Shown piece after piece: positions 18,601 through 21,600 of a DNA stretch of 64,000 bases; within the stretch, counting starts at the first letter, position 1; every line of letters starts with the position of its first letter. The notes under the pieces are model-generated. The model saw nothing but the letters and a program-made list of their open reading frames with translations. It had not been told where the DNA came from and searched no databases. Source of the DNA: Meghimatium bilineatum (lineage: Eukaryota > Mollusca > Gastropoda > Stylommatophora > Philomycidae); NCBI GenBank assembly GCA_034231615.1, contig CM067322.1, forward strand, positions 61,581,032-61,645,031, written 5' to 3'. Both the position numbers and the translations under genes were made by a program.

Positions 18601-21600
18601 ATATATATATGTAAATATGCCATTGTTATATATATGTAAATATGACATTGTTATATATATGTAAATATGACATTGTTATATATATATGTAAATATGACAT
18701 TGTTATATATGTAAATATGATATTGTTATGTACATATCGTAGAATAGCTAACACCCATTAGAGTGATTTCAAATCGAATGATAGCTTTGAAACGAATAAC
18801 TTTGAACAGACAGAATTGGAAAGATCTGACCTCTGACCTATGCTTTAACTTAGCGCTAAAGAAAAATGATAATGATAATGTACAATTGTTTTTAATGTGT
18901 AAATATATTATTTCCCTTTAACTGAATATAACTGTCACTTCGTACACGTATCACTTCGTGTATTTGTACTTGTGTATACCCAACCACTCCCCGATCATCC
19001 CACTTCTAGTTCGGGACAAATATGTTACAAGTACTCACTACGGTTACAAAGCTTACATAATGCAGTTTATCATGCATGCCGGGTTTTTTTAAAATTTATT
19101 GTATTAGTCCCCTCCCGAGGATAAGACGTCATTGCTCATGATATTACGCCATGCCACCGAATAAGTCAAGTAGAAATTGATGTGCAAGAAAATTGCTATA
19201 GCAGAAAGATTCGTCAGGAAAAAGGTCAGCTTAGAATAAATAATGCTACCTACTTGTCTGTCACAGGAATCAAGAGTCCAACATTGGTACTTCTTTTGTA
19301 ATTCTAAACAAACAGATACACGCAAGAAGATTTAGCTCTATAGTTCTACATTCATTCGCGAGTTTCCTTGTTTCGCAATTTACCTAAATGTGTTCATTAG
19401 AATTTGACCGTCACAGCAGCTATTATTCATAGCTTGAAGACGTATTCATACATTAAAGCTCCATTAAAGAGGAGCTACTCTTCCCAAATGATATGCCAAA
19501 TATGAGTGAAATCGTATCATCCAAACCAAAATAAAATAGACACCAAATATACCTCAAATAAAATAGACACTAAATATACCTCATATAAAATAGAGACCAA
19601 ATATACCTCAAATAAAATAGACACTAAATATACCTCATATACAATAGATACCAAATATACCTCAAATAAAATAGACACTAAATATACCTCATATAAAATA
19701 GACACCAAATATACCTCAAATAAAATAGACACTAAATATACCTCATATACAATAGACACCAAATATACCTCACATACAATAGACACTAAATATTCCTCAT
19801 ATACAATAGACACCAAATATACCTCAAATAAAATAGACACCAAATATACCTCACATACAATAGACACCAAATATACCTCATATACAATTGACACCAAATA
19901 TACCTCAAATAAAATAGACACCAAATATACCTCACATACAATAGACACCAAATATACCTCAAATAAAATAGACACCAAATATACCTCATATACAATAGAC
20001 ACCAAATATACCTCAAATAAAATAGACACCAAATATACCTCAAATAAAATAGACACCAAATATACCTCAAATAAAATAGACACCAAATATACCTCACATA
20101 CAATAGACACCAAATATACCTCAAATAAAATAGACACCAAATATACCTCAAAAAAATAGACACCAAATATACCTCAAATAAAATAGACACCAAATATACC
20201 TCAAATAAATAGACACCAAATATACCTCAAATAAAATAGACACCAAATATACCTCAAATAAAATAGACACCAAATATACCTCAAATAAAATAGACACCAA
20301 ATATACCTCAAATGCTTCAGAAACATTTAGATCCACATTTTCATACTGAGCATTAAAGAACAACTCTTCTACTGTAAACGTCATTTTTGATTGCGCCTCA
20401 ATCATATCCAACTTAAGCATGGCCTGCGTTTCAGGGCTGCAAGTAAGATAACAGAAATAAAAACCATATTAATTGCAACTCAATTAGAGTCAGCTATAGA
20501 TAATTGCGTATACATCATATAGTTGATGTTAGTAACGCAAATAAATGTCATTAGGTACTGTGATATTTTGTACTGTATGTAACCGATATTTTCTACTGTA
20601 TATAGCTGATATTTTGTATTGTAGGCCTATATGGCTGAAATGGTGTATATATCTATATAGATATATACTTATATATATATATATATATATATATATATAT
20701 ATATATATATATATATATATATGTGTGTGTATGTGTGTACATACACTATATAGCTGATATTTTGTACTGTATTTAACCGGTACTGTATATAGTTAATATT
20801 TTGTACTGTATAAAGCTTATATTTACACTGTATAGTACTAGTTTGTTGTACTGTATATAGCTGATATTTTGTACTGATATTGTTTTTAACTTAATAATGT
20901 ACATATTGCTTGCATTAAATAAAAAACCTGACGTAACCTACAAAGTATGCCGGTACAATTGTACAAGCCATTATATATATATATATATATATATATATAT
21001 ATATATATATATATATATATATATATATATATATATATATATATATATATATATATATATATATATATATATATATATATATATATATATATATATATAT
21101 ATATATATATATATATATATATATATATATATTAGTGGTACTTAAAAGTCAGTAGTATGTGAAAAACAATGTTCTATACATCAGTAATTCACAATCTTGT
21201 TGCACCCGTGGCGAACGTATATGTGAAATTTCTTTCTGTGACACCTTACGAATCAAAATACAAATTAAGGACCTTTTTTGCGGCCTCTCAAACTCATCAT
21301 GCATTTTCAATTACCATTTTTTAGTGGCATCCAATCAAAACTGTAGTTTTCAGCAGGGGAGTGGCGTGGCATATAATCCACATTCAGAACCACTGATCTA
21401 GATGTTTGTAACAAAAAAATGTTTCCTAAATTGTGTACCGAAATGAATATTTGCAAGTCTTTGAGATTGATATCCTACATTATACCTTATTTCACTTGAC
21501 TACTCACTTGTCTCTTTGCTTATATTTCATTTGAACAAATTGGAAACATTGTTGATTCTGGTTTATTTTTTAAATTTCCCAAGAACATTCATTAGAAAAC

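Follow-up and report, generated by a model that had tools for sequence, protein, structure and literature searches.

A 27-bp intronic minisatellite spans and copies the splice donor of exon 3 in a DEG/ENaC channel gene of Meghimatium bilineatum

Introduction

Which donor does the spliceosome take when a tandem repeat has copied the splice donor of an exon many times down the adjoining intron, and what does such a repeat mean for the protein? The question is raised by a locus on the minus strand of a 64,000-nt stretch of the Meghimatium bilineatum genome (assembly GCA_034231615.1, contig CM067322.1, positions 61,581,032 to 61,645,031; hereafter the window, in which all positions are counted). 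A preliminary description of this DNA held that the donor of exon 3 in a DEG/ENaC gene is repeated about 29 times by a 27-bp satellite. It offered three readings: the array may create length variants of an extracellular loop, soak up U1 snRNP or be tolerated noise. With 28 identical and evenly spaced donors, the array constitutes a natural test case for spliceosome choice, and it also bears on how a donor-copying repeat is tolerated.

A comparable layout is described for the VNTR in intron 18 of human ABCA7, which is made of 25-bp units, the first GT being the donor of exon 18 (PMC5954066). According to that report, the VNTR counts about 12 to 427 repeats between people, with 23.7 copies in the reference, and retention of one unit through the donor of the next has been observed (PMC5954066). 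Two frameshifting isoforms are given there at 14 +/- 6 and 2 +/- 1% "respectively"; going by their order in the text, the lower value belongs to unit retention, and exon 19 skipping is described as dependent on VNTR length and unit retention as independent of it (PMC5954066). Other reports describe a 38-bp VNTR in TERT intron 6 linked to splicing (PMC11830802), a snail T-type channel with tandem donors (PMC3376122), and intron gain by tandem duplication of 24-nt repeats in the fission yeast genes SPOG_01682 and SOCG_00815 (PMC3629103). The latter process is formulated as the AGGT model (PMC4974935); the original paper names AGGC and the later one AGGT. Among the open-licence matches listed, which were mostly judged by title or the start of the abstract, no donor-spanning array was found beyond ABCA7 and the tandem-duplication cases.

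Results

A DEG/ENaC gene on the minus strand

The minus strand of the window holds a DEG/ENaC (ASC) gene. Exons 2 to 6, joined with AG acceptors and GT donors, give an open frame of 318 residues; both gene ends lie outside this model. The exons are as follows (a slash marks the splice junction).

21698..22074, minus strand: exon 2 (TM1 region), 5' limit uncertain; Pfam ASC match on the open reading frame, donor AGA/GTAAGT.
20307..20436, minus strand: exon 3, 130 nt if donor 20306 is used; acceptor TTGCAG/CCC, donor GAG/GTATAT, open spliced model.
17201..17371, minus strand: exon 4, 171 nt, phase 0, the target of the exon 3 donors; acceptor TTATCAG/AATG, donor CGT/GTAAGT.
13986..14084, minus strand: exon 5; splice sites and open joined frame.
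10432..10609, minus strand: exon 6; splice sites and open joined frame.

The joined protein matches Pfam ASC (PF00858) over residues 31-314 of 318 (E 5.1e-39, 135 bits), and its matches in the PDB include acid-sensing channels, the best being ASIC2 (6l6p, E 1.4e-15). Together with the open spliced model, these matches support the gene, exon 3 and the exon-edge donor as they had been proposed. The similarity support for exon 3 itself is modest: its open reading frame on its own has no Pfam match and the model without it still scores 112.7 bits, so that the exon rests on position, splice sites and frame combined. The acceptor had been placed at 17372, which is the final base of the intron; exon 4 begins at 17371.

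Skipping of exon 4 would be in frame (57 residues, 171 nt), and its deletion lowers the Pfam ASC score from 135 to 78 bits; the length of exon 3 (130 nt) is not a multiple of three. A further DEG/ENaC-like exon was recognised by eye near 3633-3484 on the minus strand. As read, its frame does not continue that of exon 6, so that an exon between the two is probably missing from the model. Between exons 5 and 6, on the plus strand, lies an open frame of 226 residues (11363-12043) that resembles, by eye, the RNase H end of a non-LTR retrotransposon.

An array that begins inside exon 3

The array and the units referred to below are these.

19529..20313, minus strand: donor-spanning tandem array of 27 bp, 28 full units and partial ends (Tandem Repeats Finder, TRF, and unit dissection).
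20301..20309, minus strand: exon-edge donor GAG/GTATAT, with GT at 20306-20305; the choice without an insert scores best with Pfam ASC, FaNaC and ENaC gamma.
20226..20306, minus strand: units 1-3, the sole stretch whose retention (27, 54 or 81 nt) is in frame, encoding VYLVSILFE repeats (unit lengths and isoform translation).
20200..20225, minus strand: unit 4, 26 bp, with one T missing from a T run, which terminates the in-frame option (dissection and isoform translation).
20147..20172, minus strand: unit 6, 26 bp, with an A missing between T runs (unit dissection).
19769..19795, minus strand: unit 20, with a broken donor (GAATAT; unit dissection).

TRF returns a single array at 19529-20313, with period 27, 29.1 copies and 93% matches, and dissection into units from the donor gives a total of 785 bp. 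Read on the minus strand, it starts with the seven terminal bases of exon 3, ATTTGAG (20313-20307), as a partial copy of the repeat, goes on with 28 full units, of which units 4 and 6 have 26 bp and the other 26 have 27 bp, and finishes in a partial unit of 24 bp. The array includes donor 20306, which is the donor of the exon in the gene model, besides the seven exon bases. Exact copies of GAGGTATAT number 28 in the window, all 28 inside the array, against 0.49 expected from shuffling; one further copy, GAGGAATAT at 19795 in unit 20, is broken. The donor sequence thus recurs in the units as in the ABCA7 type, 28 times exactly and once broken. In this sense the repetition of the donor that had been reported is real, with 28 rather than 29 exact copies, and the inner donors at 20279, 20252 and 20225, like the exon-edge one at 20306, are correctly placed by the dissection.

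When up to three mismatches are allowed over the whole window, the unit is matched 26 times, every time within 19529-20313, and never in shuffled sequence. Among the 26 full units of 27 bp, substitutions fall on 6 of the 27 positions. Units 8, 14, 17 and 20 (20093-20119, 19931-19957, 19850-19876 and 19769-19795, minus strand) also carry an extra donor-like TAT/GTGAGG, whose score is 2.13 compared with 0.63 for GAG/GTATAT under a generic animal donor matrix.

In-frame retention is limited to three units

The 27-bp unit is nine codons long without a stop, and the first three units are identical. Splicing from 20279, 20252 or 20225 would insert 27, 54 or 81 nt, that is 9, 18 or 27 residues, and in the translated predicted isoforms the frame stays open through exon 6 in each case. 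Unit lengths and translation thus agree with the earlier arithmetic, in which a fourth unit of 26 bp was the limit. Of the 25 unit starts beyond these, 24 have an intact donor, and the length of the insertion puts every one of the 25 out of frame; a stop was met in all seven later insertions that were translated (107, 134, 160, 187, 295, 484 and 754 nt; 7 of 24). The single-base losses of units 4 and 6 lie in or between T runs, where an assembly error is possible and would lengthen the in-frame option.

Four of the eight distinct changes between units are silent in the VYLVSILFE frame, compared with 18 of 81 expected (binomial p 0.08), an excess that points weakly towards coding. We also compared the copied donor with the rest of the unit, using the 26 full 27-bp units and positions entered by hand from the dissection: one of nine positions in the donor window varies and five of 18 elsewhere, a difference that is not significant (hypergeometric p 0.32).

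The array was considered as coding sequence and rejected, as its frames of 218 residues (minus, 19517-20173) and 217 residues (plus) follow from the stop-free unit. The former has no Pfam match at E up to 0.1. No Rfam family reaches its gathering score within 17000-22300, and exact matches of the unit in viral contigs were zero, a search that is uninformative for animal sequence.

Donor strength and protein comparison

Donors were scored with a matrix of the generic animal consensus and by pairing with the U1 end. The exon 3 donor scores 0.63, the lowest of the five scored in the gene (others 1.40-3.36), and its U1 duplex energy of -5.8 is middling in a gene whose donors span -4.5 to -8.0. Of the 214 GT sites in intron 3, 14 outscore it and 28 tie, itself counted among the ties; across the window, 7.6% of 7811 GT sites score at least as high. 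With so many sites scoring as well or better, 20306 does not stand out by this matrix.

If donor 20306 is used, no gap interrupts the three ASIC alignments shown between EAFE and, beyond the junction, NVETPFGRCFTFN. This is no proof of 20306, given that a one-residue gap in ASIC2 lies five residues ahead of the junction and a ten-residue gap in ASIC1 four residues ahead of it, and that the ASICs favour nine extra residues. By the latter gap the stretch falls short of its ASIC1 counterpart by about ten residues, and a single inserted unit would thus not necessarily disrupt the protein. Indeed, inserting one repeat raises the score from 60.7 to 62.7 bits for ASIC2, from 52.7 to 57.0 for ASIC1 (7cfs) and from 43.2 to 48.0 for ASIC5 (9mkz). 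For the same three channels, a neutral filler of nine residues gives 67.8, 59.1 and 49.8 bits and a scrambled repeat 59.9, 53.5 and 44.5; the gain is therefore mainly an effect of length, as the filler scores above the repeat and the scrambled repeat below it. Two repeats give 58.3, 51.5 and 41.1 bits, and three give 58.1, 49.1 and 42.4. In FaNaC (7yvb) one repeat lowers the score from 46.6 to 38.3 and in ENaC gamma (9blr) from 41.7 to 36.7, and Pfam ASC falls from 135 bits without insert to 131.7 with nine residues and 130.3 with 27.

Our preference for 20306 rests on the family-wide profile and on the matches to FaNaC and ENaC gamma, all of which score higher with no insert; from the sequence it is most likely the main donor. 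It is possible that 20279 has this role, as the one-repeat form would fit the ASICs better, and the protein comparison does not decide between the two. The hydrophobic nonapeptide VYLVSILFE would stand directly ahead of a strand that is conserved in the extracellular domain. A single copy may be tolerated there; two or three copies look less tolerated than one.

Divergence, origin and repeat density

The array starts with ATTT inside the exon and ends with ATTT ahead of TTGG, and this 4-bp direct repeat could have been the seed for the duplication of a 27-bp piece across the boundary. Divergence was measured in the 26 units of exactly 27 bp, leaving aside the two of 26 bp and the partial one. 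The mean pairwise value is 6.3% for all 26 units, 1.6% for the nine proximal to the exon and 8.7% for the nine distal ones. The lower divergence of the exon-proximal units suggests that the newest growth or homogenisation took place on the exon side. We infer that the array probably arose on the spot.

Tandem arrays are dense in this DNA: those of period at least 10 form 34 merged blocks and account for 10.3% of the window. They contain one of the 11 splice sites, where 1.14 are expected, and the chance of at least one is 0.70, in a model where sites are independent and arrays are free to fall anywhere. Positions within 10 bp of an array end make up 2.2% of the window, and the chance that at least one of the 11 splice sites falls there is 0.21. 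Two of these 11 sites belong to the exon recognised by eye and are one base off its present reading; the result is unchanged, the nearest array starting at 4026. An array on a splice site is thus unremarkable here, since the array density predicts about one among 11.

The modelled intron 3 measures 2935 nt (17372-20306), 48% of it in three arrays, and its acceptor at 17372 lies outside the donor-spanning one. A 23-bp array at 18237-18729 is another of the three. Intron 2 holds a perfect (TA)80 at 20972-21132 and related 23-bp repeats at 20562-20623 and 20780-20880.

Discussion

The array is a donor-spanning intronic minisatellite of the ABCA7 type, a kind that is known but rarely described; what is notable here is the frame-preserving unit and the many identical donors. 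We consider it likely that it was born locally, is mostly discarded with intron 3, with minor in-frame slippage, and amounts to tolerated noise. A 27-bp piece holding the end of exon 3, its donor and the start of intron 3 would have been tandemly duplicated in place, and the exon-side units would have expanded or been homogenised most recently. The exon-edge donor, by preference 20306, would take most of the splicing, so that the array leaves with intron 3; this dominance is what the comparison with ABCA7 leads us to expect. The same donor of moderate strength recurs in each intact unit, and a small fraction of transcripts therefore probably switches to 20279, 20252 or 20225 and gains 9 to 27 residues in frame, at a low level that we take from ABCA7. 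Slips further in would shift the frame, and such transcripts would likely be degraded. As the inner donors are identical, the choice among them must hinge on position and exon definition.

Of the three readings offered at the outset, tolerated noise fits best. Functional length variation and the soaking up of U1 snRNP are possible roles, weakened by a donor window that is not significantly more conserved than the rest of the unit and by an in-frame option that closes with the third unit. If inner donors served as a length-variation device, regulated isoforms would carry 9, 18 or 27 more residues immediately ahead of FGRCFTFN, a strand of the extracellular domain. Some features would suit this: 27 bp makes nine stop-free codons, units 1-3 are identical, half of the unit changes (4/8) are silent in the VYLVSILFE frame, the stretch lacks about ten residues relative to ASIC1, and nine extra residues fit the ASICs better than none. 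Yet we regard such a device as improbable. The silent excess is not significant (p 0.08), one unit length in three would be divisible by three by chance, and two 1-bp losses close the option after three units; moreover, the letters of the repeat fit ASIC2 worse than neutral filler (62.7 vs 67.8 bits), 18 or 27 residues score lower than no insert (58.3 and 58.1 vs 60.7, ASIC2), and Pfam ASC, FaNaC and ENaC gamma favour no insert. A mutable dial, in which the number of clean units and donor slippage would together produce heritable length variants of the extracellular domain, would act where lengths within the family already vary by about ten residues; we give it marginally less credit than the regulated device.

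A cost of the ABCA7 kind, where the length of the array and not its extra donors impairs splicing and leads to exon 4 skipping or lower expression, is unlikely, yet it is the alternative to which we give most weight. In ABCA7, as reported, exon 19 skipping grows with VNTR length and unit retention does not; here, too, the length of the exon that would be skipped, exon 4 (171 nt), is divisible by three, unlike that of exon 3 (130 nt), and the matrix ranks the exon 3 donor last among the five scored in the gene. Against this, the ABCA7 repeat is C-rich and the present one A+T-rich, the U1 pairing energy of the donor is middling, and loss of exon 4, which cuts Pfam ASC to 78 from 135 bits, would hardly leave a useful product. 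By analogy with ABCA7, exon 4 skipping is nevertheless where we would look for an effect of array length. The array could instead be the edge of a genome-wide satellite that happens to touch the exon, its donor match being accidental, and the 34 merged arrays in the window, with a 21% probability of one or more of the 11 splice sites falling within 10 bp of an array end, make this conceivable. It is rather unlikely, as no other place in the window matches the unit and both the seven-base overlap with the exon and the phase of the GT fit a duplication of the boundary itself. Least probable of all is recursive splicing, in which each unit would be an abutting acceptor and donor (TTTTATTTGAG/GTATAT) and the intron would be removed stepwise, with the donor regenerated and the mRNA unchanged. 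A recursive splice site consists of a polypyrimidine tract, CAG or TAG, and then a donor. The units with intact donors do have AG/GT after a T-rich stretch, and the pyrimidine share of the three units checked (0.69) is within the 0.62-0.81 of the four modelled acceptors. However, the acceptor would be GAG, where those four are CAG, and the spacing of the units is far below that of the recursive introns known to us.

The preferred reading, a locally born minisatellite that is mostly discarded with the intron, can be set beside known systems. In ABCA7, as far as the report describes it, an intronic array likewise adjoins the exon and includes the donor, with 23.7 reference copies vs 29.1 here. 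It differs in that its array is described as starting at the GT, whereas this one reaches seven bases into the exon, and in that its unit is C-rich, in contrast to the A+T-rich unit here. The ABCA7 array is also known with expression and population data, while the present array is known from the sequence of one assembly. The 25-bp unit shifts the frame and the 27-bp unit preserves it: compared with ABCA7, slippage here would surface as variants in protein length instead of vanishing through decay. The arrangement had been called unusual, which holds only in part; it has a close human precedent in ABCA7, and the local density of arrays predicts about one such hit.

The fission yeast cases, as reported, are alike in having short whole-codon tandem repeats with a proto-splice site in each. 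There the repeats made new introns, whereas here an intron has received copies of its own donor. As for the AGGT model, the units carry AG/GT, and the acceptor of the modelled 2935-nt intron (17372) is outside the array.

Human minisatellites such as MS32 show polar growth, and the present array is similar in having homogeneous, presumably newest units at one end (1.6% on the exon side vs 8.7% on the far side). If the array does nothing, it is still an example of a repeat-rich animal locus whose arrays fall on splice sites at about the chance rate. On the plus strand of the same window, an open frame of 365 residues at 27589-28686 contains a DDE_3 domain (Pfam E 3.1e-14), matches a Tc3-type HTH weakly and below the cut-off, and looks like a Tc1/mariner-like transposase.
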